Source: a virus
Strand: one strand, 5' to 3'
Length of the DNA stretch: 28,256 bases
IMG/VR virus record: IMGVR_UViG_3300023196_003264
Location: 1-28,256 of that record
Shown: one piece after another, positions 1,735 through 26,497 of the stretch
How the letters are laid out: each line of letters starts with the position of its first letter
How positions within the stretch are numbered: position 1 is the first letter of the stretch
The notes under the pieces: model-generated
Databases searched by the model: none
Seen by the model: only the letters and a program-made list of their open reading frames with translations
What the model was told of the DNA's origin: nothing
Translations under genes and position numbers: made by a program

Positions 1735-1742
1735 ATATTTAT
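1735..1742 (+). promoter_or_regulatory. ATATTTAT late-promoter-like element, 4 nt before ATG
   Basis: The octamer ends exactly 4 nt before the ATG at 1747. The same spacing recurs at 6524-6531 and 19688-19695. If the octamer acts as a -10 element, transcription would begin at or next to the start codon, giving a leaderless mRNA. Confidence 0.55.
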
Positions 1743-1746
1743 TTGT

Positions 1747-2643
1747 ATGACAAAAGATATAAAATGTAATACAAAAGATATCCATGAATTCATGGAGTTT
1801 AAAAGTGGTTGGGACTCAATTAAGGGTTCTGAGGGGTTTTTCGAATATTTTCCATTTGAAAAGAATGTTGTGAATCATATTAATGATAATAGATTTAGCA
1901 TTATAAAAAAATCTAGACAAATGCATATGACTACAGTATTAGCCACATACGGTGCATGGAATATGTTAACTCAAGATAAAAATGTTTATTATTTTGGCAA
2001 TAGATTGGATGCTGGTAAACATTTTGTAAGAAAAGTTAAATCTATAATTGAAAATGCTAATCCTAAAATAAAATATAATAGAAACACTACTGTTGAGGGT
2101 AGATTAGAAGATGGAACTTTACTTAAATGTTTCTCTAGTTCGGTTTGCGCCTCTAAAGGTCATACTTTAGATGGTATTGTTATTATAGACGAAGCTGCAT
2201 ATTTAAATAATTTTTCAGAGTTATTAAGTGTGCTATTACCTACTATTTCGGTGGGTTGTAAAGTTATTGTAGTTTCTACACCTAACGGGGTTGGTGATGG
2301 AGATAAAAAATTAAACGGATTTTTCGAATTATATCAAAGTTCGATTGTAGGTGAAAATAATTTTAATCTTATGTCAATAAATTATAAAGATAACCCAAGA
2401 TTTGACAAAAAATGGAATGACCATATGATGAAAATTTTAAGTCCCGCTCAATATAAACAAGAAGTGTTAGCTGAATTCGTTCAATCTGAAGAAATTAAAA
2501 AAATTAATAAAAAGTTAGATTCTATTATTCAATTCAGGCTTAGTGATGATTTATTAAATAAATTATCGAGAAAGTTAATAAAAGAAGATGTTAATATTTC
2601 GAAGTATATGAGAAATTTAATTCTCAAGGATGTGAATGTTTAA
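1747..2643 (+). CDS. Terminase large-subunit-like ATPase with ribbon-helix-helix-like tail, no nuclease domain
   Basis: 298 residues resembling the ATPase half of phage large terminases (T4 gp17 family), which power DNA packaging. The P-loop region is KKSRQMHMTT (residues 54-63). The usual G-K before T is replaced by H-M, with lysines only at the front (K54/K55), as in the deviant K-x-R-Q type P-loops of many terminases. Walker B is IVIIDEA (144-150) and the coupling motif is STPNG (177-181). The segment ending QEVLAEF (238-244) matches the end of the ATPase domain. The C-terminal nuclease that should follow is missing. Instead, residues 258-298 read like a ribbon-helix-helix DNA-binding unit (strand IIQFRLSDD, then two helices). 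The 3' end overlaps the convergent gene at 2617 by 27 nt. It may be a split terminase, a stand-alone paralogue or a remnant. Confidence 0.75.
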   Translation: MTKDIKCNTKDIHEFMEFKSGWDSIKGSEGFFEYFPFEKNVVNHINDNRFSIIKKSRQMHMTTVLATYGAWNMLTQDKNVYYFGNRLDAGKHFVRKVKSIIENANPKIKYNRNTTVEGRLEDGTLLKCFSSSVCASKGHTLDGIVIIDEAAYLNNFSELLSVLLPTISVGCKVIVVSTPNGVGDGDKKLNGFFELYQSSIVGENNFNLMSINYKDNPRFDKKWNDHMMKILSPAQYKQEVLAEFVQSEEIKKINKKLDSIIQFRLSDDLLNKLSRKLIKEDVNISKYMRNLILKDVNV

Positions 2644-2979
2644 TTCATCTTTAATTGGGACCAATAGGGTCCCTGAACCATTATTGAATATGATTTTAAA
2701 TTCACCAACGAATGTACCAGCTTTTCTAGTTTCTTTTGCTGAAAATTGATATCCGATGAAATATTCTTCACCATTACAATCACTTGAAGGTGCTTTAAGA
2801 ATACATAAAGCTGTTTTATTACCAATTCTTTTAACACCAGTTGTAGTGTCTTCCATAGAAAATGTAATTGTAGAGTTTTGTACCAAATCGTGGAAATCAT
2901 CGTAATCATTTCTCCCATCGTTAATTAATTCCATCTTCAAGATAGGTAATGTCGCTTTTTTGTTTATATAAAAATCCAT
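2617..2979 (-). CDS. Small beta-rich protein, possibly BppU N-terminal-like
   Basis: 120 residues with alternating short hydrophobic strands and a pattern reminiscent of the N-terminal domain of phage upper-baseplate (BppU-type) proteins: an opening 'FYINKKATLPIL', a middle 'STITFSMEDTTTGVKRI', and a late 'AGTFVGEFKIIF'. No catalytic motif is seen. It starts at ATG 2979 with an ATATTTAT element 15 nt upstream on the minus strand, so it appears to have its own late-type promoter although it follows the glutaredoxin gene by only 29 nt. Its 3' end runs 27 nt into the terminase-like gene. A structural role is inference from the fold-like pattern and the promoter. Confidence 0.65.
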   Translation of the reverse strand: MDFYINKKATLPILKMELINDGRNDYDDFHDLVQNSTITFSMEDTTTGVKRIGNKTALCILKAPSSDCNGEEYFIGYQFSAKETRKAGTFVGEFKIIFNNGSGTLLVPIKDELNIHILEN

Positions 2980-2994
2980 TTAATCCGTTTTATT

Positions 2995-3002
2995 ATAAAT
3001 AT
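2995..3002 (-). promoter_or_regulatory. ATATTTAT element on the minus strand
   Basis: ATAAATAT on the plus strand reads ATATTTAT toward the gene starting at 2979, 15 nt before its ATG. It is the only such element in the window serving a minus-strand gene. It implies late expression of a gene lying among replication genes. Confidence 0.5.
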
Positions 3003-3008
3003 AAATTA

Positions 3009-3266
3009 TTAAGAAATAATCATCTTTTGTATTAAATCAATTGCGTTATCTATCGTCACAAAACTTCTTTTTGGGACCAAGATGTGCGGTGCGATGACAA
3101 TAATTGGAATTACAGGTTCGCCAGCTTTCTTGAACATCGACTCAACATGCTTTTTATTTTTTTCATCATCAACATTGATTTCAAGATATTTTAATTTATT
3201 ATCTTCTAACTTTTCTTTTAATTCTGTACAGAATTCACATTGTTTACTTGTATATATTTGTATCAT
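3009..3266 (-). CDS. Glutaredoxin-like protein
   Basis: 85 residues, the normal size for a phage glutaredoxin (compare T4 NrdC). The redox site is C10-E-F-C13, directly after the first beta strand (MIQIYTSKQ). V-I-P54 supplies the cis-proline next to the active site. Such proteins reduce disulfides in ribonucleotide reductase or other cytoplasmic partners; the partner is not visible here. Its ATG overlaps the last 4 nt of the helicase gene, so the two are translationally coupled in one minus-strand operon. The stretch after the cis-proline (IIVIAPHILVPKRSF) is less typical, so substrate specificity is open. Confidence 0.88.
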   Translation of the reverse strand: MIQIYTSKQCEFCTELKEKLEDNKLKYLEINVDDEKNKKHVESMFKKAGEPVIPIIVIAPHILVPKRSFVTIDNAIDLIQKMIIS

Positions 3267-5116
3267 AATTCTAATCCATTTTCTTCTAAATCATCCATTA
3301 ACATTTTTAATCTAGCACCATGCTCATCGTTTTTACCAATGATTTTATTAATAACTTCTTGTTTCTTCATAAGTGTATACCACATTACAAGAGATATAGT
3401 ACCTGTAAATAGTTGATAATACACTGAAACATTATTTTCTTGCCCAATACGATAGGTTCTATCTTCAGCTTGTTCATTATCGCCAGGCACCCAACTAAAG
3501 GAATTAAAGATAACTACAGTACCTTCAGTAAGTGTAATCCCAACTCCAGCCGACATTACGTTTCCAACAAAAACCTTACATTTTTTGTTATTTTGAAATT
3601 TATCTACCGATTTTTGCTTTGCGTTGGTGGTCATCTTACCATTATGTATTACACATTCAGTATTGGTAAAACTATCCGCTATTTCATTCAATTCATCAGT
3701 AAATGTTGTAAATATAACCACTTTTTGTCCTTGTTCAACAGCGTCTTTAGCTAATTGAATGGTATGTGGTATGGTTTCCATAGCAATAAATTTCCTAAGA
3801 AGACCTAATTCTACAATATCTTTGGATAAATCACTAATCCTACGTTTACCTTCTTCAGCTCTTTTTTCTATGTATTCGTCCCAAAGATTTTCATACTCTC
3901 TTTCACCACGTTTGGATAATTTATGGTAAATGGTTGAAATCGTTTTATCTGGCATATCCAATACATCATTTTTCAATCTTCTTAAAAGAGAATTTTTGGT
4001 CCTGATAGCTAATTCATCTAAATTACTGGCACCATTGGTAATCCAAATTTGTCTTCTTTGACCATTTTTAAGTGTTTTATAAAAACGATTAGCATCACAA
4101 TATCTTTGCGCAAAGAATTTCCAATTATCAGCTAGAGGTGATTTAATCATCTTTAGGATATTAAAGAAGTCCATTGGTCTATTCGCAATTGGTGTTCCTG
4201 TAAGTTCCCAAACCCTTTCAATACCATGAGTTAATGCGAGTTCGTTGCATATTTTACCTCTTTGAGTTTTATGGTCTTTAATTTTATGGGCTTCATCAAT
4301 AATAACCAAATCATATTTTTCATCAACAAGGTTTCTGAAATGTGGATTAGGGTTACCGTCTTTATCAAATGTTTGTTTACCTATTGTATGAAAATTCTTA
4401 AGAATATCAAAATTAATTACAGTAAAACGTCCTACATCAGGAAATTTACTCCCACTAACAATAATAGCTTTTTGACCAAAGGCTTCAATTTCTCTTTGCC
4501 AACTTATCTTAACACTCGCTGGGCATATAACTAGAACTTTTTTAGCATCAACCTCTAATGCTGCAATTATAGCTTGCATACTTTTTCCTAGACCCATATC
4601 GTCAGCTAATATCGCACCTTTCCTACATACGAGGAATTTAATTCCTTCTTTTTGATGGTCATATGGGTGCCTACCTGATATGTCCATTTCCTCATACTTA
4701 TCCCAATCAATTTCAATATTACATTCAGTATAATAAGGGTCATCCAATACAAGTGTTTTTGGCAACCAATACATTTTAGAATTTTTTTGATTTTGTTTTA
4801 ATTTACCATATATGTGATATGTTTTTTCTTGGTCAGCAAGCATTGCTTGTATAAGAATTTTTTCAGGTAAAAATGATAATCCATCTTTGGCTTGAAGGGA
4901 TTCACCCAATAGAGGATTTATTTTAACCACACGATTCAACACTTGTGGTGGTGTATCATGAAATTTATTTATGTATTCAACTTGCCCTTCGGTTAAAGAT
5001 ATTTTAGTATCTCTAAGCAATTTCTTATTCAAGTCTTTTAAATACGGATTAACTCCGCTATATGTCTGTAATAGGGTGACTGCACCTCTACTTTTAATGT
5101 CTTCTAAATTTACCAA
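3263..5116 (-). CDS. SNF2-family (superfamily 2) DNA helicase/translocase
   Basis: 617 residues with the full SNF2-type motor. Motif I is DDMGLGKS (172-179), motif II is DEAH (274-277), motif III is TGTPIANRP (306-314), and motif V is near GVGITLT (524-530). Motif VI, QAEDRTYRIGQ (549-559), is the hallmark of SNF2/RapA/SMARCAL1-like ATPases. Phages use such enzymes in fork remodelling, recombination or transcription-complex removal; T4 UvsW is a functional comparison but a different subfamily. The N-terminal 150 residues show no recognisable domain. The start ATG at 5116 follows a TTGACT-N17-TATATT promoter and a perfect palindrome. The gene heads an operon with the glutaredoxin gene (4-nt overlap). 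Confidence 0.93.
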   Translation of the reverse strand: MVNLEDIKSRGAVTLLQTYSGVNPYLKDLNKKLLRDTKISLTEGQVEYINKFHDTPPQVLNRVVKINPLLGESLQAKDGLSFLPEKILIQAMLADQEKTYHIYGKLKQNQKNSKMYWLPKTLVLDDPYYTECNIEIDWDKYEEMDISGRHPYDHQKEGIKFLVCRKGAILADDMGLGKSMQAIIAALEVDAKKVLVICPASVKISWQREIEAFGQKAIIVSGSKFPDVGRFTVINFDILKNFHTIGKQTFDKDGNPNPHFRNLVDEKYDLVIIDEAHKIKDHKTQRGKICNELALTHGIERVWELTGTPIANRPMDFFNILKMIKSPLADNWKFFAQRYCDANRFYKTLKNGQRRQIWITNGASNLDELAIRTKNSLLRRLKNDVLDMPDKTISTIYHKLSKRGEREYENLWDEYIEKRAEEGKRRISDLSKDIVELGLLRKFIAMETIPHTIQLAKDAVEQGQKVVIFTTFTDELNEIADSFTNTECVIHNGKMTTNAKQKSVDKFQNNKKCKVFVGNVMSAGVGITLTEGTVVIFNSFSWVPGDNEQAEDRTYRIGQENNVSVYYQLFTGTISLVMWYTLMKKQEVINKIIGKNDEHGARLKMLMDDLEENGLEL

Positions 5117-5139
5117 AATCTGTTCTTTTTTTTACTTTT

Positions 5140-5160
5140 TAACAATATTATATATTGTTA
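5140..5160. repeat. 21-bp palindrome at the helicase promoter (operator candidate)
   Basis: TAACAATAT (5140-5148) and its exact complement ATATTGTTA (5152-5160) flank TAT. On the minus strand the palindrome lies immediately downstream of the TATATT hexamer, covering the likely transcription start. This is where a repressor would block initiation, though A/T-rich palindromes also arise by chance. Confidence 0.4.
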
Positions 5161-5188
5161 ATATACTTAAAATTAACGAAAAAGTCAA
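5160..5188 (-). promoter_or_regulatory. Sigma70-like promoter for the helicase-glutaredoxin operon
   Basis: On the minus strand TTGACT (5188-5183), exactly 17 nt, then TATATT (5165-5160). This is close to the classical sigma70 consensus with ideal spacing and lies 43 nt before the ATG at 5116. Confidence 0.55.
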
Positions 5189-5216
5189 TACCTTCCAACT
5201 ATTTATATAATATTAA

Positions 5217-5224
5217 ATATTTAT
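5217..5224 (+). promoter_or_regulatory. ATATTTAT late-promoter-like element
   Basis: The octamer lies 20 nt before the ATG at 5245 and opens the plus-strand virion block. A second imperfect copy (CTATTTAT) lies at about 5199-5206. Confidence 0.5.
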
Positions 5225-5244
5225 CAATATACACTTTAAAGAAT

Positions 5245-5763
5245 ATGAGTAATAAAAGAAAAATACCAATTAAAAGAATCGATAAATTTTTCTCTGGAAG
5301 AGATTTTGATTTAGAAGTACAAATGGGTCGTGAAGCAATTGAAGGTGATGGTAATTTTACTGTCATACTATATAGAGTTGATAACGAAACAACCCAAGTG
5401 GATGATTTATATGGTGAAGCTAGTGCTAGTGAAATTAACTATCTACCACCAGTTGAATTATATGTTGTCCCTATCATTGATAAGGCTGAGAACAAAACAT
5501 ACTCTAAAGGGCATCTGAATTATTTAGAAGACGGAAACCTTACTTTCATTGTTTATAGTCAACACTTAGAAGAGTTGAATGTTGATATTACTATGGGTGA
5601 TTATATCGCTTACCCAATAGATGAATCAGACGTTGTTTATTTCTCTGTAACCAATGCTGGTCAAAAAAATTACGATAATGCCCATACAATTATGGGGTAT
5701 AAAGGTGCGTATAGAGTAGTTACATGTACTTTTGCTAACGAGGATGAATTCTCAGGAATATAA
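5245..5763 (+). CDS. Neck-protein-like (T4 gp14-like) virion protein
   Basis: 172 residues if started at ATG 5245, which I prefer over an in-frame ATG 90 nt upstream because that one lies before the late-promoter-like element. Two stretches recall the T4 gp14 neck family: 'VDDLYGEASASE...PPVELYV' in the first half, and a late 'MGDYIAYPIDESDVVYFSV' followed by 'YRVVTCTFANEDEFSGI', like the gp14 ending with E/D-E-x-F-x-x-G-I. gp14 helps close the filled head and join the tail. It is followed 10 nt later by the first tail-completion-like gene, which suits a neck role. The call rests on pattern memory, not an alignment. Confidence 0.55.
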   Translation: MSNKRKIPIKRIDKFFSGRDFDLEVQMGREAIEGDGNFTVILYRVDNETTQVDDLYGEASASEINYLPPVELYVVPIIDKAENKTYSKGHLNYLEDGNLTFIVYSQHLEELNVDITMGDYIAYPIDESDVVYFSVTNAGQKNYDNAHTIMGYKGAYRVVTCTFANEDEFSGI

Positions 5764-5773
5764 AATATAGATT

Positions 5774-6517
5774 ATGCCATTACCAAAAGGTTTTAGAAAA
5801 AAAGTAAATTTTATAAAGCAAAATGTTGGACCCGAAAAGAGACAAGATTTTCTTGATGATATAGATTATAAAGGAACTTACTTACCCAAAGGAGTTGATT
5901 ATGAAGATATTGATAGAGGATTTCTTGATTTTGTTGATAGTGAGTTATCTGTTGAAATTGATGATGATTCAGTTCCTGTAAGATTTTTAACACTCCAAAG
6001 ATTTGCTGAATTTAGTAAAACTTGGACGTTTTCAGATAAATTTAAAAATCTAAAGATGCCATTTATAACCGTAGTTAGACAACCTGATATTCAAGTTGGT
6101 TCTAACCAAGCGGGGATATGGAATATTCCAGGACAACAGGTTTATACATACATGAAAATACCTACATTTATTGACGGTAGGAAAGGGATGGATACCTATA
6201 AAATTCCACAACCTACTTCAGTTGATATTACATATGATGTTAGATTCTTTTGTAATAGAATGAGAGATTTAAATATTCTACATAAAGTAGTTCAAACAAC
6301 ATTTAATTCAAGACAATTTTATATTACAGTAAATGGGCACCCAATGCCAATTCATTTAGAAAAGATTGGTGATGAAAGTCAAATCGATGATTTCGATAAG
6401 AGAAGGTTTTATGTTCAACATTTTGAAATGAAGATATTAGGATATATATTAGATGAAAATGATTATGAACATATTCCAACTGTTAATAGAGGTAATATTC
6501 GATTTACAGAACAATAA
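5774..6517 (+). CDS. Tail-completion/terminator-like protein, shorter paralogue
   Basis: 247 residues, about 70% identical by eye to the first 240 residues of the next gene. Near-invariant blocks include GPEKRQD, DDIDYKG, QRFAEFSK, VDITYDVRFFCNRMRDLN, GHPMPIHLEKIGDES and RRFYVQHFEMKILGYILDE. The arrangement (a 'Y-D-V-x-F' strand, a helix, a strand of 'FYITVNG' type, then an R-R-F...K-I-L-G-Y-I-L strand) resembles small tail-terminator/sheath-stabiliser proteins (T4 gp3/gp15 type), and its place after a neck-like gene agrees. It has no signal peptide or catalytic motif. It ends with IRFTEQ at the point where its paralogue continues into an extra domain. Confidence 0.6.
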   Translation: MPLPKGFRKKVNFIKQNVGPEKRQDFLDDIDYKGTYLPKGVDYEDIDRGFLDFVDSELSVEIDDDSVPVRFLTLQRFAEFSKTWTFSDKFKNLKMPFITVVRQPDIQVGSNQAGIWNIPGQQVYTYMKIPTFIDGRKGMDTYKIPQPTSVDITYDVRFFCNRMRDLNILHKVVQTTFNSRQFYITVNGHPMPIHLEKIGDESQIDDFDKRRFYVQHFEMKILGYILDENDYEHIPTVNRGNIRFTEQ

Positions 6518-6523
6518 ACGTTT

Positions 6524-6531
6524 ATATTTAT
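6524..6531 (+). promoter_or_regulatory. ATATTTAT late-promoter-like element, 4 nt before ATG
   Basis: Lies in the 18-nt gap between the two paralogues, ending exactly 4 nt before the ATG at 6536. The second paralogue can therefore be transcribed separately, probably as a leaderless message. Confidence 0.55.
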
Positions 6532-6535
6532 TAAT

Positions 6536-7567
6536 ATGCCACAAGGATATAAAAAAAATGTAAAATTTATAAATCAAAATGTCGGACCTGAAAAAAGGCA
6601 AGATATTCTTGATGATATAGATTATAAAGGAAGTTACTTACCTAAAAGTATCTATTATGAAGATATCGACAGAACATTTCTTGATTTTGTTGATAGAATT
6701 CTAGAGATAGAAATTAATGGGTCAAAGGTTCCTGTCTATTTTTTTACAATTCAAAGATTTGCTGAATTTAGTAAATTGTGGGATACTTCAGATAAATTCA
6801 AAAATGTAAAAATACCATTCATAACTATAGTTAGACAACCTGATGTTCAGGTCGGTTCTAACCAGAATGGTTTGTGGAATATTCCAGGTCATAAACTCTA
6901 CACATATATGAAGGTACCTACATTCAACGGTGGGCATAAGGGTGCTGATTTATATAAAATCCCACAACCTACTTCGGTAGACATTACATATGATGTTAGA
7001 TTCTTTTGTAATAGAATGAGGGATTTAAATATGTTTAATAGAAAGACACAATTTACTTTCCAATCAAGACAATATTATATAAATGTTAGTGGACATCCAA
7101 TGCCAATTCATTTAGAGAAGATTGGTGACGAGAGCCAAGTTGATGATTTTGATAGAAGAAGGTTTTATGTTCAACACTTTGAAATGAAGATATTGGGATA
7201 TATATTAGATGAAGATGATTATGAATTTGTACCAACTATTAATAGAATGATAGTTTTTACAGAATTAATTGATAATAAAATAAAACCTAAAATTGTAATC
7301 AGGTCATTTAAAGATATTGATGAAATATGTTTGAATGTTGTGATAAAACCTGACCATTTTAGTGATGAATTTATAATAACAATGGTATATGATGCGGAAA
7401 TAACCACATTGAATTTTATAACCAATGTTACCAATGTTGATATAGCAATAAATGGGGTTCAACAAACATTTCCATTTAATATTTCAGCCAATCAACAAAT
7501 GGTATTAACCGTTGCTAGGGATGAAACCAAAGAAGCTAAATTTCAATTAATTGGAATAGTTAAATAA
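6536..7567 (+). CDS. Tail-completion/terminator-like protein, longer paralogue with extra C-terminal domain
   Basis: 343 residues. Residues 1 to about 240 duplicate the upstream gene closely, including the VDITYDVRFFCNRMRDLN and HPMPIHLEKIGDES blocks. From about residue 240 (after IVFTE, the counterpart of IRFTE in the short copy) it adds about 100 residues rich in beta strands and isoleucine/valine, ending LIGIVK. This looks like an added Ig-like or beta-sandwich domain. It may form a mixed ring with, or stack on, the shorter copy at the head-tail or tail-tip junction, as T4 uses related gp3 and gp15 rings. That assignment is inference. Confidence 0.6.
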   Translation: MPQGYKKNVKFINQNVGPEKRQDILDDIDYKGSYLPKSIYYEDIDRTFLDFVDRILEIEINGSKVPVYFFTIQRFAEFSKLWDTSDKFKNVKIPFITIVRQPDVQVGSNQNGLWNIPGHKLYTYMKVPTFNGGHKGADLYKIPQPTSVDITYDVRFFCNRMRDLNMFNRKTQFTFQSRQYYINVSGHPMPIHLEKIGDESQVDDFDRRRFYVQHFEMKILGYILDEDDYEFVPTINRMIVFTELIDNKIKPKIVIRSFKDIDEICLNVVIKPDHFSDEFIITMVYDAEITTLNFITNVTNVDIAINGVQQTFPFNISANQQMVLTVARDETKEAKFQLIGIVK

Positions 7568-7594
7568 AAAGCTCTAACATAATAGAGAGAGATT

Positions 7595-7966
7595 ATGAGT
7601 AAAGTTGATAAAACATATGTATTTGAAAGTGTATTTACTTCTGGTGGAACTTCTGGTTCAACCGCTGATGATTATACTATTACCGCTGAACTTAGTGGTG
7701 ATACTCTAGAATTTACAAGATTGTCTGGTGGAACATATAATGTTGTTTTATCTGGGTTAACAGGTTCTACCGTTGCTGGTCCAATTACTTTTTCTGCGGA
7801 AACTCTTAGCGGAACTACAACTTATGTTGGTTATGGTGAGGTTGGTGCTTGTAAAATAAGAAGAATAATTACTACTTCTGGGGCTACTTATTCAGCATTT
7901 TGGTCCAACGGTGAAGAAGATTTAGATAAAATTTGGGTAAATAGGTATACTTACTCGTATTTTTAA
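7595..7966 (+). CDS. Small virion-associated protein, function unknown
   Basis: 123 residues, rich in threonine, serine and glycine, with short alternating strands (YTITAELSGDTLEFTRLSGG, then VVLSGLTGSTVAGPITFSAE). This composition is shared with the large appendage proteins downstream and is typical of beta-structured virion parts. No cysteine motif or transmembrane segment. It follows the longer paralogue by 27 nt, with a purine-rich GAGAGAG 4 nt before the ATG. That is one of the few places in the window with something like a Shine-Dalgarno sequence. A cap, decoration or small fibre role is possible. Confidence 0.6.
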   Translation: MSKVDKTYVFESVFTSGGTSGSTADDYTITAELSGDTLEFTRLSGGTYNVVLSGLTGSTVAGPITFSAETLSGTTTYVGYGEVGACKIRRIITTSGATYSAFWSNGEEDLDKIWVNRYTYSYF

Positions 7967-7984
7967 TATTTATTGTATATTTAT
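7966..7984 (+). promoter_or_regulatory. Two ATATTTAT elements, 11 bp apart
   Basis: Octamers at 7966-7973 and 7977-7984 are spaced by one helical turn. The second ends exactly 37 nt before the ATG at 8022, the same distance as at the sheath and tube genes. The 37-nt leader is almost pure A/T with a run of ten adenines. Strong expression of the downstream gene is inferred. Confidence 0.6.
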
Positions 7985-8021
7985 TAATAACACATAAATT
8001 AAAAAAAAAATAAATTAAAAA

Positions 8022-9710: not shown

Positions 9711-9741
9711 TTACTAGATTCACAGAAAATAGTTTACAATT

Positions 9742-9783
9742 ATCCTTATCTTATTATATTTATTAATAAGATAAGGATTTTTT
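9742..9783 (+). terminator. Terminator-like hairpin whose loop contains the promoter-like octamer
   Basis: A perfect 15-bp stem (9742-9756 with 9764-9778) encloses the 7-nt loop TATTTAT and is followed by a T6 run to 9783. It fits an intrinsic terminator for the 562-residue gene. The late-promoter-like octamer occupies the loop and one adjoining stem base. Confidence 0.75.
9756..9763 (+). promoter_or_regulatory. ATATTTAT element in a terminator loop
   Basis: The octamer coincides with the loop of the hairpin at 9742-9778 and lies 30 nt before the ATG at 9794. Messages starting here would carry only the 3' arm of the hairpin and could not refold it. Confidence 0.5.
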
Positions 9784-9793
9784 AATTGTGGAT

Positions 9794-13701: not shown

Positions 13702-13733
13702 TAGGTTGTTAGGGTGATTTATTCATATTTATA

Positions 13734-13984: not shown

Positions 13985-13992
13985 ATATTTAT
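13985..13992 (+). promoter_or_regulatory. ATATTTAT element for the tail sheath gene
   Basis: Ends exactly 37 nt before ATG 14030. The leader contains AAATAAACAATT at the same offset at which the tube gene leader has AAATAAACGATT, suggesting a shared translation-enhancing leader. Confidence 0.65.
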
Positions 13993-16483: not shown

Positions 16484-16518
16484 GAATATGTGAGGAAAAA
16501 TTCTTTCCTCACATATTT
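16484..16518 (+). terminator. Terminator-like hairpin after the sheath gene
   Basis: ATATGTGAGGAAA (16486-16498) pairs perfectly with TTTCCTCACATAT (16504-16516) around a 5-nt loop, extendable by one A-T and one G-T pair outward. The following T stretch is short, so termination may be partial. The tube gene's promoter-like octamer overlaps the 3' foot of the stem. Confidence 0.65.
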
Positions 16519-16520
16519 AT
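16513..16520 (+). promoter_or_regulatory. ATATTTAT element for the tail tube gene
   Basis: Ends exactly 37 nt before ATG 16558 and overlaps the 3' arm of the sheath terminator hairpin. The leader holds AAATAAACGATT, aligned with the equivalent stretch of the sheath leader. Confidence 0.65.
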
Positions 16521-16557: not shown

Positions 16558-17046
16558 ATGAGTGATTTACTAATGAAAATGCCAGTTCCTTACGAACCAA
16601 AGAAAAAGAATAGGTGGTTAATGAGATTCCCAGCGGAATTAGGTATTCAACAATGGTGGTTACAATCAGCATCACGTCCTTCAATTGAACAAAATGAAGT
16701 TGAGATTCCATTCTTAAATACGTCAACATGGGTAATCGGTAGATTTACATGGTCAACTATTGAAGTTGTATTTAGAGATGCAATTGGACCTTCATCTTCC
16801 CAAGCTATTATGGAGTGGGTAAGATTACAATCAGAATCTGTAACAGGTAGACAAGGTTATGCTGCTGGTTATAAAAAAGATATTGAAATTGAAATGTTAG
16901 ACCCAACTGGAGTTGTTGTTGAGAAATGGCAATTGCAAGGTTCTATGTTAACAAATGTAGGTTTTGGTGACCTAGCAATGGACGATGATGGTATTGCTGA
17001 TATTACAGCTACTATCAGATTTGACAGAGCAATCTTAATATTTTGA
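16558..17046 (+). CDS. Tail tube protein (T4 gp19-like)
   Basis: 162 residues, essentially the length of T4 gp19 (163). The N-terminal MPVPYEPKKKNRWLMRFP is the usual tube-protein opening. It is followed by the pattern W-x-L-Q-S-A-S-R-P-S, an 'NTSTWVIGRFTWSTIEVVF' strand pair, the 'IMEWVRLQSES' helix and a late 'KWQLQGSMLTNVGFGDLAMDDDG' loop, as in gp19-family proteins. It stacks as hexameric rings to make the inner tube through which DNA passes. It lies directly after the sheath gene with its own promoter-like element. A terminator-like hairpin follows before the endonuclease gene. Confidence 0.93.
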   Translation: MSDLLMKMPVPYEPKKKNRWLMRFPAELGIQQWWLQSASRPSIEQNEVEIPFLNTSTWVIGRFTWSTIEVVFRDAIGPSSSQAIMEWVRLQSESVTGRQGYAAGYKKDIEIEMLDPTGVVVEKWQLQGSMLTNVGFGDLAMDDDGIADITATIRFDRAILIF

Positions 17047-17109
17047 CATATTGATTATCAGATAGTTAATTACTTTATAGTAAAATAGTTCTATCAAATA
17101 AGAGCTTTG

Positions 17110-17159
17110 AGCTTTACTTTATATATTTATTTAAGTATATTAGGGTAAAGCTTTTTTTT
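17110..17159 (+). terminator. Terminator-like hairpin gating the endonuclease gene
   Basis: AGCTTTAC (17110-17117) pairs with GTAAAGCT (17145-17152), followed by a T8 run ending one base before the ATG at 17160. The 27-nt loop (17118-17144) contains the ATATTTAT element. A smaller nested hairpin (GATAG...CTATC around TTACT-TTAT-AGTAA) precedes it at 17061-17095. Confidence 0.65.
17123..17130 (+). promoter_or_regulatory. ATATTTAT element in the hairpin loop before the endonuclease gene
   Basis: Lies within the loop of the 17110-17152 hairpin and 29 nt before the ATG at 17160. A transcript begun here lacks the 5' arm, so neither termination nor occlusion of the start by the hairpin would occur. 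Confidence 0.55.
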
Positions 17160-18029
17160 ATGGAAAAAATTAAATGTAAAATATGTGAAAAAGAATTCAC
17201 ATCGATATTAGGGTTAAGTAAACATAATTCACAAAAACATAATATGTGTTCGGAAGATACTTTTATTGAATATCAATTAAGTGGTAAAAAACCAACGTGT
17301 AAATGTGGTTGCGGTGAAGAAGTTAATTTTTTATCAATTAAAAAAGGTTATGTTGAATTCGTGAGAGGTCATTCACAACGAATTAGTAATAATTGGGGTC
17401 ATAACCCTAAAGCTTTGAAAAAATCTCATAAAACTCAACAGTTAATGCATGAGTCAGGTGAATTGAAAATGTGGAATGATGGGTTAACTATTGATGACCC
17501 CAGAGTTAGAGATAATATAGATAAGGTGATGGCAAATCCAAATAGAAGTAAAAAAATATCTAAAGCTTTATCTGACGTACCTAAATCTGAAGGACATAAG
17601 AAGAAATTATCTGATATAGCTAATATTCGATGGTCTGACCCTAAAGAGAGGGAAGCTCAACGATTTCGTAGATTAAATTACTTTAGAACTTCACAATCTA
17701 GGAAAAGGTCAAAATTAGAACAATTTTTTGATGATTTATTAACAAATATGGATATTGATTTTGAAAGTTCATATAGTGTTGATGGGTATCTATATGATTT
17801 TTACATTAAAAATTATAATACCTTAATAGAAGTTGATGGTGATTGGTATCACTTCAATAATAAGGTTCATTCATTACCATTATCACCTATTCAAGAAAAT
17901 ACCATTCAAAATGATAAGAAGAAAAATATAGTGGCTAAAAATAATAATATTACACTTCTTAGGTTTTGGGAATATGATATCAAAAATAATCTAGGTGAAG
18001 TAATTAATAAATTAAAAGAATTTATATAA
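17160..18029 (+). CDS. Vsr-like (EDxHD-type) homing endonuclease with zinc fingers
   Basis: 289 residues. A C2H2 finger (C6, C9, H22, H27) is followed by a second cluster (C47, C49, C51, H71). A NUMOD3-like basic linker follows (NRSKKISKALSDVPKSEGHK, residues 128-147). The C-terminal nuclease core has E187 in SKLEQFF, D213 in YDFYI, EVDGDWYH (224-231), N-D252-K-K-K and LLRFWEYDI (266-274). That is the order seen in Vsr-related homing endonucleases such as I-Bth0305I (EDxHD family). These free-standing enzymes cut a related phage's allele and spread their own gene. It sits just downstream of the tube gene, behind a terminator-like hairpin, and 1 nt before a second endonuclease gene. All expected catalytic residues are present, so it is probably active. 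Confidence 0.88.
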   Translation: MEKIKCKICEKEFTSILGLSKHNSQKHNMCSEDTFIEYQLSGKKPTCKCGCGEEVNFLSIKKGYVEFVRGHSQRISNNWGHNPKALKKSHKTQQLMHESGELKMWNDGLTIDDPRVRDNIDKVMANPNRSKKISKALSDVPKSEGHKKKLSDIANIRWSDPKEREAQRFRRLNYFRTSQSRKRSKLEQFFDDLLTNMDIDFESSYSVDGYLYDFYIKNYNTLIEVDGDWYHFNNKVHSLPLSPIQENTIQNDKKKNIVAKNNNITLLRFWEYDIKNNLGEVINKLKEFI

Positions 18030-18030
18030 T

Positions 18031-18810
18031 ATGAAAAGTTGTAGTAAATGTAAAATAGAAAAAGAATTATCTAATTTCTATGTTTGTAGGACTAGAAAGT
18101 GTGGTTACCATAATGAATGTATAGAATGTGTAAAAAAAAGAAATAACAAAAGACCTAGGTCAAAAACTGGCACTATTTGGAAACAGTCATTACATACTAA
18201 AAATTTAAAATATTGTGAATTATGTGAAAATGTTAAACCATTTAATGAATTTGGTAAAAATAAAAATAATATTGTTGGTTTACAAAATTATTGTAAACCA
18301 TGTAAAAGAAAAAAAGATAAAAATTATAGAAAAAGTTTAAAAGATAGAGGTATATACACGGAAAGGAAGAGAGCTGATTATGTTAAGAATATGGACCAAT
18401 ATAGAGCGTATGGTTTAGAGTATAATAAAAGTAAAAGGGATTATAAATCTGAATATAAAAGAGTTTTAGAATATAGAGAAAAAAACCCGTTAGCTAAATT
18501 AAAGAATGCGTTGAGAAATCGAATTTTAATAGCTATTAAAAATCAAGGGTATGTAAAAAATATGAAGACTAAAAAAATGTTAGGTGCTGAATGGGATGTT
18601 GTTGAATCTTTTATATCGAATAAATTTACAGATGGGATGACATGGAGTAATCATGGTGAATGGCATATTGACCATATTATTTCATTAAAAACAGCTAAAA
18701 GTGAAGAAGAATTAATAAAACTTAACCATTATACTAACTTACAACCTCTATGGGCGACAACGAGAGAGATTAATGGAGTTATTTATGAGGGTAATCTGAA
18801 TAAAGGTTAA
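18031..18810 (+). CDS. HNH endonuclease with two zinc-ribbon-like clusters
   Basis: 259 residues. Two CxxC...CxxC clusters (C4/C7 with C30/C33, and C62/C65 with C88/C91) precede a lysine-rich helical linker. The HNH core is GEWHIDHIISL (209-219) with the catalytic-type H-x-D-H (H212, D214, H215), followed by HYTNLQPLWA (233-242). In many relatives the last part reads N-x-x-K-G, but here it is REINGVIYEGN, so the final metal ligand is uncertain. Phage HNH proteins of this form are usually free-standing mobile endonucleases. It starts 1 nt after the preceding endonuclease stop, so the two form one transcription unit and may have arrived together. Confidence 0.88.
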   Translation: MKSCSKCKIEKELSNFYVCRTRKCGYHNECIECVKKRNNKRPRSKTGTIWKQSLHTKNLKYCELCENVKPFNEFGKNKNNIVGLQNYCKPCKRKKDKNYRKSLKDRGIYTERKRADYVKNMDQYRAYGLEYNKSKRDYKSEYKRVLEYREKNPLAKLKNALRNRILIAIKNQGYVKNMKTKKMLGAEWDVVESFISNKFTDGMTWSNHGEWHIDHIISLKTAKSEEELIKLNHYTNLQPLWATTREINGVIYEGNLNKG

Positions 18811-18817: not shown

Positions 18818-18825
18818 ATATTTAT
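18818..18825 (+). promoter_or_regulatory. ATATTTAT element after the HNH gene
   Basis: Lies 8 nt after the HNH stop and 89 nt before the next ATG. A terminator-like hairpin stands between it and the next gene, so its main product could be a short RNA, with read-through supplying the gene at 18915. Confidence 0.45.
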
Positions 18826-19680: not shown

Positions 19681-19687
19681 TTACCAG

Positions 19688-19695
19688 ATATTTAT
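19688..19695 (+). promoter_or_regulatory. ATATTTAT element, 4 nt before ATG
   Basis: Ends exactly 4 nt before ATG 19700, directly after the preceding terminator. It is the third case of this spacing and probably gives a leaderless mRNA for the following three-gene operon. Confidence 0.55.
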
Positions 19696-19699
19696 TATT

Positions 19700-19858
19700 A
19701 TGAGAAAAGAAGATAAATTAAAAAATATGATTCAAGCCAATAAACGTTTTCAAGAGAGGTTTAATGGTGAAAGTCCAAACACTCAAGAAGAAGCATTTGA
19801 ATATACACCAATTCGAGATGCTAATCCACAATTAACGAATTTAATTCAAGGGTTATGA
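19700..19858 (+). CDS. Short protein with the shared M-R-[RK]-x-D-K N-terminal module
   Basis: 52 residues: MRKEDKLKNMIQANKRFQER, then an acidic/proline-containing tail ending NLIQGL. Its first about 20 residues resemble the starts of the next two genes, so this protein is little more than that module. The ATG follows a promoter-like element by 4 nt and the stop overlaps the next ATG (ATGA), giving coupled translation. No known domain is recognised. It may be a small internal virion protein or a regulator; the shared start suggests common targeting. Confidence 0.6.
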   Translation: MRKEDKLKNMIQANKRFQERFNGESPNTQEEAFEYTPIRDANPQLTNLIQGL

Positions 19859-20688: not shown

Positions 20689-21029
20689 GAAGACAAGATA
20701 AGTTAAAAAATATAGAAAAATTAAACAGACGTTTAAATGAAAACAGATTTAGTTGGGATGGTACATATGCCAATGAAGTTAATGAAGATGAGTATTCTTA
20801 TCCATATGACGCTGAAGAAACAACTGATAGTGAAGATATAACTGACCCATATGAACTTAAAGAAACGGAAACTGTTGATGAAATTGTAGTTGGTTTAGGA
20901 GATGATATTGAGATAGTTGATGAAGATTGTGGATGTCCTTTAAATCAACCAGAACCAACTGACGTGAAAAAGAGTCAATGGTTCTCAGATGTTGATGGGG
21001 AACGAATTACAGACAAACAAGTGGATTAA
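20685..21029 (+). CDS. Acidic short protein with the shared N-terminal module
   Basis: 114 residues: a basic 20-residue start (MRRQDKLKNIEKLNRRLNEN) followed by a strongly acidic, probably disordered body (runs such as DAEETTDSEDITDPYELKET) and one C-G-C near residue 86. The split between a basic N-terminus and an acidic body resembles scaffold-associated or internal head proteins whose N-terminus targets them into the prohead, but that is inference. The start overlaps the previous stop by 4 nt. It is the last gene of the three-gene operon, and no hairpin terminator follows it. Confidence 0.65.
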   Translation: MRRQDKLKNIEKLNRRLNENRFSWDGTYANEVNEDEYSYPYDAEETTDSEDITDPYELKETETVDEIVVGLGDDIEIVDEDCGCPLNQPEPTDVKKSQWFSDVDGERITDKQVD

Positions 21030-21051
21030 TCCAAAAAAAACTTTACTTTAA

Positions 21052-21059
21052 GTATTTAT
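21052..21059 (+). promoter_or_regulatory. GTATTTAT variant of the late-promoter-like element
   Basis: Ends 35 nt before ATG 21095. It is one base off the consensus (G for the first A) and 2 nt short of the 37-nt spacing seen at the sheath and tube genes. Confidence 0.45.
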
Positions 21060-21094
21060 AGTATATAATATAATTAAATTAATGTTTTTATAAA

Positions 21095-22204: not shown

Positions 22205-22412
22205 ACGATATCTACTAGAAGAAGTATATATTTGTAAGAAACATTTAGGGTTAGCATATAGTGATGTTATGTCTATGCCAACATATGAAAGAAGATTCTT
22301 TTTAGTGACATTACAAAATGAGATTATGGACGCAGAAGAGAAACGTACTGGTGGTAGTAGTGTTACTAAAACTGGAAAATGGACTCAAACTAGAAAATTC
22401 TCTCCAAAATAA
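22125..22412 (+). CDS. Small baseplate or hub-associated protein; start uncertain, frameshift possible
   Basis: The open frame from ATG 22125 has 95 codons, but the first 23 overlap the conserved end of the gp26-like gene and look like non-coding shadow. The believable protein begins near a TTG at 22194 and reads LEYKRYLLEEVYICKKHLG, then DVMSMPTYERRFFLVTLQNE and a basic end. A short protein with 'MP-x-x-x-R-x-F/W' next to gp26 is common in large contractile-tailed phages. No ATG with a fitting signal exists at its proper start. It may be made by TTG initiation coupled to the upstream stop, or by a +1/-2 ribosomal frameshift. The terminator-like hairpin follows 5 nt after its stop. Confidence 0.7.
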   Translation: MRLRGVGLLKRFFPLTSHFFGLTLEYKRYLLEEVYICKKHLGLAYSDVMSMPTYERRFFLVTLQNEIMDAEEKRTGGSSVTKTGKWTQTRKFSPK

Positions 22413-22416
22413 TATT

Positions 22417-22440
22417 AACCCCTATTTTTAGGGGTTTTTT
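22417..22440 (+). terminator. Intrinsic terminator
   Basis: AACCCCTA (22417-22424) pairs with TAGGGGTT (22429-22436) around a TTTT loop, followed by T4. It is a compact GC-containing stem, unusual in this AT-rich region, and ends the baseplate pair's transcript. Confidence 0.85.
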
Positions 22441-22449
22441 ATTTATTAG

Positions 22450-22457
22450 ATATTTAT
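22450..22457 (+). promoter_or_regulatory. ATATTTAT late-promoter-like element
   Basis: Lies 10 nt after the terminator and 16 nt before ATG 22474, heading the two-gene unit that ends with the tape-measure-like gene. Confidence 0.55.
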
Positions 22458-22473
22458 ATAAAAACAATTAGTT

Positions 22474-23685
22474 ATGAACGATATGACATATGCAAAAGAA
22501 ATAATGAATTCATTATTGATGGAAGCTGAATTAAAGGATAGTTTCGGAGAATTTGCTGAAGAATCAATTATTAGGTTAGTTCTATTAAATAATTCTGAAG
22601 AAACTTTTCAAGTTACTAAAAATCATGCTGGTAGAATTGAAATGGTTAATTTGAAGACCCATATTAAATACACCTTTACCAAGGATGCGATAGATGATGG
22701 TGTTATGACATTACATAAAGTTGATTCTAAAAAACCTAATACTGAGGGTGCCAAAATAACCCTTAAATTAAAGGAATTTATGACTAGTAAAAAAAATGGT
22801 GAATTAGTAAATGTTGATATTGTTGATGAGGATATGGTTGAAAGACAAACCGAAATTAATAATGAATTAAGAAGTGCTAAAAAAAATGACATTCTTTATA
22901 TTACTACTGATGAAAAAAATTCTAAAGGTAATATAATGAATAATATTTTATTAAAAGTCGTTGATAAAGAAGTTAAAATGTTAACTTGTATTTTAGAGGA
23001 TATCGAATCTACAGACGGTGAGGGTAGTAGTACAAAAAGTTATGCTATGAATAAACTAGGTGACATATTTGGTCGTCATAGCATTTATATACATAGCTCT
23101 GATTTAGTTAAAATTATCAAGGGTAGTTTAACCTTAACAGTACAAGTAGGTGGAAAACCGTTAGATATTAAAAATATAATTCAAATTGAAGCTCATGATG
23201 AACCTGAGAGAAATTTAGACCCTCAAGATAAAGAGGTGATGGCAAAACAAGAATTTCTTAAAAAATATGGACATTCTGAAGAATTCCTTCAAGCAATTGA
23301 GAAAACTCCAAGTTTTTGGGAAACATTAGTTGGTGCGTCACCAAAAGGGCGTAGCCAAATCGAAAAGATTATAAACAAAAGTATGACCAATAATAGTTAT
23401 TTTACTAGAGGGTCTAAAATAACGTTTATATTAGCATCACCAACTGTACATGGTTCAAATAACCGTTCTTTGGTTTCAACAACAAAAACATATGTTGGTA
23501 CTATGTACCCAAATAAAATTTTACAAGTTAATGATAAAAGAACTGGTCATTTTGAACTTGAATTAGTTAGACAACCAAATCCATTAGAACCAATTTACAA
23601 TGTTAAAATAAGATATTGTGATAAAAGGTTAAGATGTAAATATAAAGGTGTTGGTGTAATAAATGTAATAAGAAATAATGGCTAA
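22474..23685 (+). CDS. Unknown protein, probable tail or baseplate component
   Basis: 403 residues, not recognised. The N-terminal 100 contain a beta-rich section (FQVTKNHAGRIEMVNLKTHI). The middle is charged with a conserved-looking stretch DILYITTDEKNSKGNIMNNI. The C-terminal third holds SFWETLVGASPKGRSQIEKI, followed by strands that end YNVKIRYCDKRLRCKYKG with two cysteines. No transmembrane segment, signal or enzymatic motif is seen. The position after gp26-like genes and before the tape-measure-like gene (8-nt overlap, coupled translation) suggests a tail-assembly or baseplate role. T4 counterparts in this neighbourhood would be hub proteins, but I see no specific match. Confidence 0.65.
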   Translation: MNDMTYAKEIMNSLLMEAELKDSFGEFAEESIIRLVLLNNSEETFQVTKNHAGRIEMVNLKTHIKYTFTKDAIDDGVMTLHKVDSKKPNTEGAKITLKLKEFMTSKKNGELVNVDIVDEDMVERQTEINNELRSAKKNDILYITTDEKNSKGNIMNNILLKVVDKEVKMLTCILEDIESTDGEGSSTKSYAMNKLGDIFGRHSIYIHSSDLVKIIKGSLTLTVQVGGKPLDIKNIIQIEAHDEPERNLDPQDKEVMAKQEFLKKYGHSEEFLQAIEKTPSFWETLVGASPKGRSQIEKIINKSMTNNSYFTRGSKITFILASPTVHGSNNRSLVSTTKTYVGTMYPNKILQVNDKRTGHFELELVRQPNPLEPIYNVKIRYCDKRLRCKYKGVGVINVIRNNG

Positions 23686-26266
23686 GAAAAACACACCTTT
23701 TACTGTTAAAGAACATGAACAAAGAGTCAGGTTAATCAGAGAAGCTTCTGAAAGCTTAAAGGATTATAATGACCTTTTGGTTGAAACTAGGGAGTTAGAG
23801 ACTAATCTTAAACACCAAAAAGTTCAGCAACAAAAAATTATAGATTTATTAAAAGCTAATAAACTCAAAGCTATTGGTAATCAATTATCTCAAACTGAAG
23901 TTGATATTAAGGAACAAGAAATTGCTGATTTACAGGAAATAATTAATATTACTGAAAGACAAGTAGCTGTTTATAAATCTTCTGTACAACAAGTTCAGGT
24001 AATGGCTCTTACTTTCAAAGATATTGGAAGACAAGTTAAGGGTTTAGGGAAATTAATTCTTCAACAAAAAGGTTATCTTTTAGAACAACAAAAAGCTGTT
24101 AAAGGAACCGAACTTTCAATGGGTATTCTTTCTAACCAATCAAAAGGGTTTAGAAATAATATTTACAAAACGTCACTAACAACAACACAAATAGGTGTTG
24201 GGACCAAGGAATTAGCTGAAATGCAAGGTACTTATAGTGATAACATTGGACGTGGTGTTCAATTATCAGAAGAACAATTAATTGCAATGTCAGAATTAGC
24301 TAAAGGTACTGTTTTAGGTGCTGAAGGTGCCGCAGAATTTGTTGCTAATATGGAGCATTTTAATGTTTCGGTTGAGGGAAGTGCTGGATTGATTGATGAT
24401 ATGCTTAAAACAGCTCATAAAATGGGTGTGAATAGCGGTAAGGTAATTAAAAATGTTCAAAAGAACGTTAGATTGCTTCACAGTTATAATTTTAAGGGTG
24501 GTGTTAAAGGTTTAACGAAAATGGCAGCTCTAGCTACCAAATTTAAATTTGAGATGGAATCAATCGCTGGTTTCGCTGATAATTTAATGACACCTGAAGG
24601 TGCTGTAGAAGCTGCGGCTAAATTACAAGTATTAGGTGGCGCATGGGCTAAAATGGGTGACCCGTTTGAACTTATGTATAGAAGTAGAAATGATATGGCT
24701 GGTTTAACCGAAGATATTATTGATGCTACAAGTGCAACCGCTAGATTTGATGCGGTGACTGGGGATATTTCTATTGACCCAATGGAATTACATAGATTAC
24801 GTGAAGTTTCTAAAGTAACTGGAATTAGTGTTGAAGAGTTTTCTAAAATGGCTAAAGCGAAGGCTAGATTTAACGCAATTACAAGTGAAGTATCTAGTGC
24901 TTTTAGTGAAGAAGATAAAGAATATATTTCAGGTTTAGCCACTTGGGACGATAAAAAGAAAGAATTTGTTATTACAACTCAAGTAGAGGATGAAACTGTT
25001 ACTGAAAGTGTTAATGCTCTTAGACAGATAACACCTCAAATTATTAAATCTCAATTAGATTATCAACAAAGTCTTAAACAAAATGCTGAAGAAGCTATGA
25101 CATTTACCGAAAGGTGGGATGGGTTAAAGAATATGTTTAGAAGTATTCTCTTACCTGGCTTCGAGGCGTTTGCAAACGCTTTAGAACATAGTATTGGTGA
25201 TTTCCATAAATGGGCGGTTGAAGACGGTCTTGTTGATACTTTAGTTAGTTGGGGTAAATGGGCTGGGGAATTAGCGGGTGGTTTAGTTAAATTTGCGGCT
25301 GATAATCCAATTAAAACATTAGTAGGATTAGGTTCTGCTTATTTAATAGGTAAAGCTGCTCAATGGTATTTAAGGGGTGTTCAATTAGGGGTAGGATTCA
25401 ATACTGTTGCTGGTGGTGGCTTCGGTAGAGGCGGCTTCAGTGCGGGTAAAGGTGGTGGATTCAGTAATATGAAAAGACATGCGGCTGGTACTGTAATTAA
25501 CGGTAAAAATGTTGGTGGTCAAATGTATAATGCTGGTGGAATGAGTGGAATGGGTAGAATGGGTGGAATGAAAATGGGTGCTGGAATGGGTGCTATGGTT
25601 GGTGTAGGAATGGGTATGAATGAATGGTCTACAAATAAAGAATCTGGTATGGATAGTAATGAAAATATTTGGCGAACTGGAATGGTTGGTGGTGGTGGTA
25701 TTCTTGGTGGTGCCGCTGCTGGCGCAGCTCTTGGTTCAGTCGTTCCAGTTATTGGTACTGCAATTGGTGGTCTTATCGGTGCTTATTTAGGTGCTAAAGG
25801 TGGTGACTTACTTGGTGATGCTATTTATTCTGATTCTGGACCGTCACATATGAATGACTTTATTTCAAGAGAAGGTGGGAATCCTGTTCCGTTTAGTAAA
25901 GATGATACAGTACTTGGAGCTAAGAAAGGTGGTCCGATTGATAACTTATTAAATAAAGCCACACCAGGTGATAACGATAGTAGTTTCAACACTCAAACTA
26001 TATTATCATCTAATGTAGGTAAAGGTATAAAAGGTAATGCGGTTGAAGATGGGAAGTCTGTTATCCCTAGTAATAACAAGGTTTCAGTTGAATTTAAACC
26101 TTTGCGAATTGAAGGAAGTTTAACTTTAAACTCTGATGGACAAGTAGCTGAAATTGATTTAGATGACCCAATATTGATGAGAGATTTAAGTAAAGTTATT
26201 AATGAACAATTAAGTAAATCGATTAGTGGAGGTAAAATATCTTCTAACCCTGTAGTTGTATCATAA
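23678..26266 (+). CDS. Tape-measure-like tail protein
   Basis: 862 residues, the longest protein here. Residues 1-145 form charged coiled coil (LVETRELETNLKHQKVQQQK and on). The middle (about 190-480) is helical with 'EFVANMEHFNVSVEGSAGLI', as in tail length tape-measure proteins. Residues 580-650 are extremely rich in glycine and methionine. About 670-715 is a hydrophobic glycine-zipper-like stretch (GGILGGAAAGAALGSVVPVI, then GTAIGGLIGAYLGAKGG) suited to membrane insertion during DNA ejection. It probably sets tail length and later helps form the channel. The start overlaps the previous stop by 8 nt. T4's tape measure (gp29) is shorter (590), so a longer tail or an added terminal domain is implied. 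Confidence 0.75.
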   Translation: MAKKNTPFTVKEHEQRVRLIREASESLKDYNDLLVETRELETNLKHQKVQQQKIIDLLKANKLKAIGNQLSQTEVDIKEQEIADLQEIINITERQVAVYKSSVQQVQVMALTFKDIGRQVKGLGKLILQQKGYLLEQQKAVKGTELSMGILSNQSKGFRNNIYKTSLTTTQIGVGTKELAEMQGTYSDNIGRGVQLSEEQLIAMSELAKGTVLGAEGAAEFVANMEHFNVSVEGSAGLIDDMLKTAHKMGVNSGKVIKNVQKNVRLLHSYNFKGGVKGLTKMAALATKFKFEMESIAGFADNLMTPEGAVEAAAKLQVLGGAWAKMGDPFELMYRSRNDMAGLTEDIIDATSATARFDAVTGDISIDPMELHRLREVSKVTGISVEEFSKMAKAKARFNAITSEVSSAFSEEDKEYISGLATWDDKKKEFVITTQVEDETVTESVNALRQITPQIIKSQLDYQQSLKQNAEEAMTFTERWDGLKNMFRSILLPGFEAFANALEHSIGDFHKWAVEDGLVDTLVSWGKWAGELAGGLVKFAADNPIKTLVGLGSAYLIGKAAQWYLRGVQLGVGFNTVAGGGFGRGGFSAGKGGGFSNMKRHAAGTVINGKNVGGQMYNAGGMSGMGRMGGMKMGAGMGAMVGVGMGMNEWSTNKESGMDSNENIWRTGMVGGGGILGGAAAGAALGSVVPVIGTAIGGLIGAYLGAKGGDLLGDAIYSDSGPSHMNDFISREGGNPVPFSKDDTVLGAKKGGPIDNLLNKATPGDNDSSFNTQTILSSNVGKGIKGNAVEDGKSVIPSNNKVSVEFKPLRIEGSLTLNSDGQVAEIDLDDPILMRDLSKVINEQLSKSISGGKISSNPVVVS

Positions 26267-26497
26267 ATTAATCTCTTGAAAGCCTAGTAAAATAAGGGTG
26301 ATTGAAGATTTATTAAAAATAGTTTCAAATTTACTTGTATTTTCTTTAATTATTTTGTTTTTTTTATATTATTAATTGAACTTAATAGATATTAATATTT
26401 TTATATATAAATTAATACTAATAATATACTAATATTGCGTAATTTAAATTTTAAGTAAAAAAATACTTAATATTAATATTTATAATAAAAGAAAGCT
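26267..26497. other. 231-bp AT-rich intergenic region
   Basis: It has no ATG on either strand and is almost purely A/T, with scattered TTAATATT-like repeats. A perfect 7-bp hairpin (TTAAGTA 26451-26457 with TACTTAA 26464-26470, loop A6) lies 5 nt before the promoter-like element at 26476. No convincing terminator for the tape-measure gene is seen. This is the longest plus-strand gap without a gene. Confidence 0.7.
26476..26483 (+). promoter_or_regulatory. ATATTTAT late-promoter-like element
   Basis: Lies 14 nt before ATG 26498, at the end of the long AT-rich gap and just downstream of a short perfect hairpin. Confidence 0.5.

Follow-up and report, generated by a model that had tools for sequence, protein, structure and literature searches.

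The late promoters of phage T4 are activated by the sliding clamp gp45 and the co-activator gp33. Their element, TATAAATA in T4 and KVP40 and NATAAATA in S-PM2 cyanophages, has been described as common to T4, KVP40 and cyanophages (PMC2984593, PMC7892883), and the sigmaABfr promoter of Bacteroidota consists of a -33 TTTG and a -7 TAnnTTTG (PMC6847099). Here we describe an element that follows neither pattern, the octamer ATATTTAT with the heptamer TATTTAT as its core, in a stretch of 28,256 nucleotides (nt) of viral DNA (IMG/VR record IMGVR_UViG_3300023196_003264, here called the window) which, to judge from its sequence, comes from a T4-like myovirus and is a fragment of its genome. The element is real and clade-wide; it works like a T4 late promoter but fails the sequence that defines one, and so is not a canonical member of that class. 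We put at about 0.77 the probability that (A)TATTTAT(A) is the late-promoter -10 element of a T4-like clade, mostly infecting Bacteroidota, that would be read by a phage gp55-like sigma factor.

Like a T4-type late promoter, TATTTAT is a -10-type element that, by gene content, stands upstream of virion genes in the coding direction and has no conserved -35, and a gp55 homologue is encoded, here in T4-related relatives and not in the window. Unlike one, its sense strand is the reverse complement, departing from both the TATAAATA and the NATAAATA consensus. With the sigmaABfr promoter it shares AT-richness and its place relative to the predicted start site and start codon; it differs in having neither a -33 partner nor TTTG and in the gene sets it precedes, and the two classes coexist in one phage genome. 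A literature search of open-licence papers found no earlier description of TATTTAT late promoters.

Enrichment and conservation of TATTTAT

The sequence-only reading had listed octamers before most transcription units of the window and proposed a phage late promoter. Every listed copy is present in the correct orientation, on the plus and minus strands alike and including the GTATTTAT variant before gene 21095 (Table 1), and only two plus-strand copies lie inside genes (15477 and 27894), as it had stated; five minus-strand copies antisense to genes (19498, 20353, 20534, 27315 and 28245) were missing from its list. Both window strands together hold 22 octamer matches against 9.06 in shuffled sequences, and none of 100 shuffles reached 22. 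In the sense strand of the gaps between genes, ATATTTAT occurs 12 times against 1.2 expected (1000 dinucleotide shuffles, maximum 8) and ranks first among all 8-mers under order-0, -1 and -2 models, with 3 antisense copies in the same gaps. The pattern [AG]TATTTAT is found in 14 of the 19 window gaps of at least 12 nt, and a copy lies no more than 110 nt upstream of 13 of the 28 window genes (1.4 for random 110-nt windows). The observation of the sequence-only reading is confirmed. As a marker of operon boundaries the octamer predicts well, although the rule that it is absent within about 30 nt of a preceding gene has exceptions: genes 6536 and 2979 carry it in gaps of 18 and 29 nt.

Members of the clade were sought with the tail sheath of the window as query, which has hundreds of relatives in IMG/VR, the closest at 73% identity; its best isolate matches, at ~30% identity, include Microcystis phage Mel-JY01 and Flavobacterium phage immuto_2-6A (immuto). 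TATTTAT lies no more than 90 nt before the sheath start codon, mostly ~30-60 nt before it, in all 45 relatives with a readable sheath upstream region (sheath identity roughly 41-73%), and it is the top 7-mer in the relatives' gaps (398 against 82 expected in 81 sequences). Two near-complete relatives, G001 (205 kb) and G002 (191 kb), hold 46 and 26 copies of ATATTTAT against 4.9 and 4.4 expected, and immuto holds 38 copies of TATTTAT against 6.7. Rhodothermus phage RM378 carries a related motif whose seventh base is A and not T: TATTTAA occurs 23 times against 2.2 expected, before sheath, tube and portal genes. The RM378 late motif TTATTTAAA appears to be undescribed, and the gp55-like gene of this phage, p020, is annotated as hypothetical (L239, L240).

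The remark that the element resembles the reverse complement of the T4 form is literally true (TATTTATA against TATAAATA), but it is the genes downstream that define its direction, and T4 and cyanophage S-RIM2, run through the same pipeline as positive controls, returned the sense form (T)ATAAATA. In the window gaps TATAAATA has 0-1 copies and ATAAATA stands at about chance, which sets them apart from the T4 sense consensus.

Element anatomy and predicted start sites

Counting the first T of TATTTAT as index 0, the heptamer is preceded by A (-1) in 63% of cases in the relatives' gaps, and the other clearly conserved feature is an A-rich triplet at indices 11, 12 and 13 (A in 86, 94 and 85% of sites 19-25 nt from the start codon). 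Upstream of aligned TATTTAT sites in the relatives there is no comparable conservation that would mark a -33/-35 partner; a -35-like CTTTTG ~13 nt upstream of the sheath copies was rejected, being not conserved over all sites and probably derived from terminator T-tracts. The host -7 element in Flavobacterium johnsoniae spans -12 to -5 (PMC6847099), and a TATTTAT starting at -12 would accordingly place +1 at index 12.

Distances to the ATG fall into classes, with 46 sites at 11-13 nt, 2 at 14-18 nt and 70 at 19-25 nt in four genomes and the window, and a further group at 37-46 nt that stands out in the window and among sheath promoters; these classes were not seen with the antisense control ATAAATA. 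The classes at 11-13, 19-25 and 37-46 nt correspond to predicted leaderless transcripts and to predicted leaders of ~10 and ~30 nt. In the closest class the predicted start site coincides with the A of the ATG, and window genes 1747, 6536 and 19700 are accordingly predicted to be leaderless. The A-rich triplet at 11-13 nt recurs whether the ATG lies 22 nt or 45 nt away. The distance classes are alike for TATTTAT sites in the relatives and for the host-type sites of G001 described below, and leaders of ~2-6 nt are almost absent, which suggests a translation constraint under which an mRNA is leaderless or has a leader of at least ~8 nt.

The candidate reader and rival explanations

The T4 gp55 family, phrog_234, weakly matches one open reading frame of ~240 aa in each of G001, G002, G005, G009 and immuto (gp118 in the last), and is the family matched by most members of the gp55-like group, whose close relatives number 76 loci. 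A profile of these proteins matched immuto at 8e-24 and Mel-JY01 at 5e-17. A broader hidden Markov model, to which immuto, Mel-JY01 and the huge phage LR756508 had been added, reached RM378p020 (2.1e-14), S-RIM2 gp55 (4.1e-6) and T4 gp55 (4.6e-5); a profile comparison of A1 with the single T4 gp55 had given a probability of only 6.5. Mel-JY01, RM378 and LR756508 thus join the first five as carriers of the gene. Pfam Sigma70_r2 matches single gp55-like sequences at ~2e-4. An AlphaFold model, built on an alignment of exact translations of the loci only, is of modest confidence (predicted local distance difference test, pLDDT, 72; predicted template modelling score, pTM, 0.42). It matches sigma factors throughout, with weak Foldseek E-values of 0.1 and up, and its best structural match pairs residues 17-118 with region 2 of sigmaE bound to its -10 strand (Z 10.1, root-mean-square deviation 2.4, 91 residues). 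Given the pLDDT, pTM and E-values, a sigma4-like C-terminal domain in the model is proposed tentatively.

The protein shares sigma domain 2 homology with T4 gp55, but at ~240 aa it has an extra C-terminal helical domain, its region 2.3 reads [KR][AV][FY]SY where T4 and S-RIM2 have NPxAY, and its C-termini show by sequence no obvious counterpart of the acidic-hydrophobic clamp-binding tail of T4. Among the sequences compared, the switch in promoter sequence coincides with the change in region 2.3. Small open reading frames beside the gp55-like gene, considered as gp33 candidates, had no PHROG match; among other families tried, phrog_256 was a wrong guess and phrog_12791 gave no matches. Four of the gp55-like genes (L165, L171, L172 and L178) have an in-frame insertion of ~70-75 codons at a single position within the N-terminal portion, and a similar gene in L186 reads with stops.

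According to the mechanism that we propose, host core RNA polymerase carrying the phage gp55-like sigma factor (domain 2 plus the C-terminal helical domain) would recognise TATTTAT at about -12 to -6 and make no contact at -33/-35, and transcription would begin on an A lying 11-13 nt beyond the first T of the heptamer. The sites lie at the starts of transcription units, often just after or inside terminators, and mainly precede virion genes; early and replication genes probably use the host's own -33/-7 promoters. Late expression of the downstream genes is suggested by their content and by analogy with T4 (PMC2988020, PMC7892883). A sliding clamp or a gp33 may also take part. More tentatively, and with a good deal of doubt, late promoter and sigma factor may have been rewritten jointly in a whole T4-related branch, TATAAATA giving way to TATTTA(T/A). 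The sigma factor would then be a single polypeptide combining gp55 domain 2 with a sigma4-like C-terminal domain that does the flap-binding job of T4 gp33, and many late mRNAs would be leaderless in hosts without Shine-Dalgarno signals.

The late-promoter proposal of the sequence-only reading is supported by the conservation of the element, the missing -35, the A-rich start triplet, the preferred leader lengths and the segregation from host-type promoters, lateness itself following from gene content; of its two suggested mechanisms, a phage sigma factor is preferred given the gp55-like sigma encoded in relatives, and a remodelled host polymerase is the weaker. Several observations weigh against reading by the gp55-like protein at late genes. 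No sigma gene was found in the window fragment, so that the reader is deduced from relatives; the gp55-like gene was not found in G003 and G004, whose contigs miss the whole syntenic segment; and a search for the T4 clamp family PF02916 recovered it in T4 but not in the relatives. In LR756508, which encodes a gp55-like protein, TATTTAT gives no clear signal (4 against 2.2) and ATATTTAA a weak one (6 against 1.1). A replicative helicase of G001 also lies behind TATTTAT, and some sites fall outside structural regions, so that 'late' is not absolute. We rejected G003 and G004 as counterexamples to a gp55-like reader, their contigs lacking the entire syntenic 30 kb.

The best-surviving rival, which we nonetheless consider unlikely, is that TATTTAT is read by a full-length RpoD-like phage sigma factor (regions 1.2, 2 and 4), the gp55-like protein having another role. 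Such a protein of 264-273 aa exists in G001-G004 (L189, L190, L191, L192), and its region 2 could have acquired an altered -7 specificity; it is also present in the jumbo contigs G013-G017 and G021 of the same T4-like clade. A sigma factor with region 4 should show itself by a -33 signature, however, and the TATTTAT sites have none, while the related TATTTAA of RM378 accompanies a gp55-like gene. Moreover, a full-length Sigma70_r2 sigma factor was not detected in immuto or Mel-JY01, both of which have TATTTAT and the gp55-like gene; since these phages use the element before late genes without an RpoD-like sigma factor, the gp55-like gene is the common denominator.

It is decidedly improbable that the host polymerase, perhaps remodelled, uses TATTTAT as a weakened or degenerate version of its sigmaABfr -7 element, even though the two, aligned on TTT, differ mainly by a G to A change and share the same distance classes to the ATG. 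The sequence-only reading had made this link to TAnnTTTG, and it did not survive: G001 has ~30 host-type promoters of the form TTG-N19-21-GTATATTTGC, which fit the described Bacteroidota -33/-7 consensus with a strong G and a -33 TTTG ~19-21 nt upstream, and these form a separate, nearly exclusive class. TATTTAT sites have no -33 TTTG and are not TAnnTTTG. The two motifs avoid each other in the gaps of G001, where one gap holds both and 42 and 32 hold a single motif (p = 3e-8), and in the same direction in G002, G003 and G004 (p = 0.04, 0.19 and 0.007). The structural block of G001 is enriched in gaps with TATTTAT only (odds ratio 8, p = 8e-4), and the sampled genes behind TATTTAT are mostly for tube, fibre and head-tail adaptor, with several unknowns; primase, RNA ligase, kinase and tRNA nucleotidyltransferase are among those sampled behind host-type sites. 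TATTTAT also occurs in Mel-JY01, which was recorded from a cyanobacterial host. No third promoter class was evident by eye in gaps with neither motif. In immuto, ~20 early-type promoters that resemble one another, GTTG(C/G)-N20-TATATTTAGGTATcAATAATT, precede mostly small genes of unknown function within positions 22095-76217 (L081, L082).

A non-promoter element of RNA or DNA, such as a processing site, a piece of a terminator or a translation signal, is more improbable still. Distances to the ATG are structured and some copies do lie in terminator hairpins, but the sites at 22 nt and 45 nt share one A-rich triplet, in the closest class the ATG coincides with this triplet, the position expected of a start site, TATTTAT sites come after terminators and sense copies within genes are rare. 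A terminator-like hairpin, mostly followed up by a T-tract, encloses the element in its loop at window positions 9729-9785 and 17105-17160 and at three further loci (L066, L003 and L188), and sites with stems of at least 10 bp number 9 against 0.6 expected from flank swapping; an RNA begun in the loop lacks the 5' arm and would therefore escape the terminator that stops upstream RNA. Finally, although TATTTATA and TATAAATA are exact reverse complements, chance in AT-rich DNA or T4-type promoters on the opposite strand can be dismissed, given the dinucleotide-preserving shuffles, the 3 antisense against 12 sense copies and an orientation that tracks the downstream gene on both strands.

If TATTTAT is indeed a late promoter read by the gp55-like sigma factor, a large and mostly uncultured branch would have a different -10 sequence covarying with a divergent gp55, a natural promoter-and-sigma switch that offers a system for studying how domain 2 specificity evolves. 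Late operons of many Bacteroidota phages could then be annotated simply by looking for the heptamer, and leaderless late mRNAs are a testable prediction.

The window and its genes

Besides the features in Table 1, the window encodes a baseplate-hub-like protein (gene 21095) and a tape-measure-like protein. A Bacteroidota host is presumed from the host-type promoters of the relatives.

Table 1. Motif copies, genes and a candidate host-type promoter in the window
Feature	Position	Strand	Remarks
ATATTTAT	1735..1742	+	before terminase-like gene 1747, whose ATG falls at index 11 of TATTTAT; predicted leaderless
ATATTTAT	2995..3002	-	before minus-strand gene 2979-2617
ATATTTAT	5217..5224	+	before gene 5245
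ATATTTAT	6524..6531	+	before gene 6536; predicted leaderless
ATATTTAT, two copies	7966-7973 and 7977-7984	+	before gene 8022
ATATTTAT	9756..9763	+	before gene 9794; in loop of terminator-like hairpin, 15-bp stem
ATATTTAT	13725..13732	+	intergenic, over minus-strand open reading frame 13892-13734 towards gene 14030; not listed by the sequence-only reading
ATATTTAT	13985..13992	+	before tail sheath gene 14030
ATATTTAT	16513..16520	+	before tail tube gene 16558; immediately downstream of an inverted repeat
ATATTTAT	17123..17130	+	before endonuclease gene 17160; in loop of terminator-like hairpin, 13-bp stem
ATATTTAT	18818..18825	+	before gene 18915
ATATTTAT	19688..19695	+	before gene 19700; predicted leaderless
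GTATTTAT variant	21052..21059	+	before gene 21095 (baseplate-hub-like)
ATATTTAT	22450..22457	+	before gene 22474
ATATTTAT	26476..26483	+	before gene 26498
Terminase large-subunit ATPase-like, 298 aa	1747..2643	+	phrog_2, 3.8e-24
DNA helicase	3263..5116	-	phrog_62, 1e-106; UvsW-like by position and family; TATTTAT not found upstream
Tail sheath (gp18 family), 814 aa	14030..16474	+	phrog_23, 5.6e-57
Tail tube (gp19 family)	16558..17046	+	phrog_4542, 4.3e-29
Candidate host-type promoter TTG-N21-TATATTG, imperfect	1654..1684	-	before minus-strand gene 1633-1, itself lacking an upstream TATTTAT; weak, single site

The terminase gene (1747-2643) covers only the ATPase part, its C-terminal segment looking ribbon-helix-helix-like by eye, and may be split or truncated. 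Two endonuclease genes, one of HNH/homing type and one endonuclease VII-like, occupy 17160-18810 within the tail cluster, directly after the tail tube gene and with a TATTTAT of their own. The genes at 5774-6517 and 6536-7567 are adjacent paralogues with very similar N-terminal parts, pointing to a tandem duplication, and the second has its own leaderless-type late promoter.

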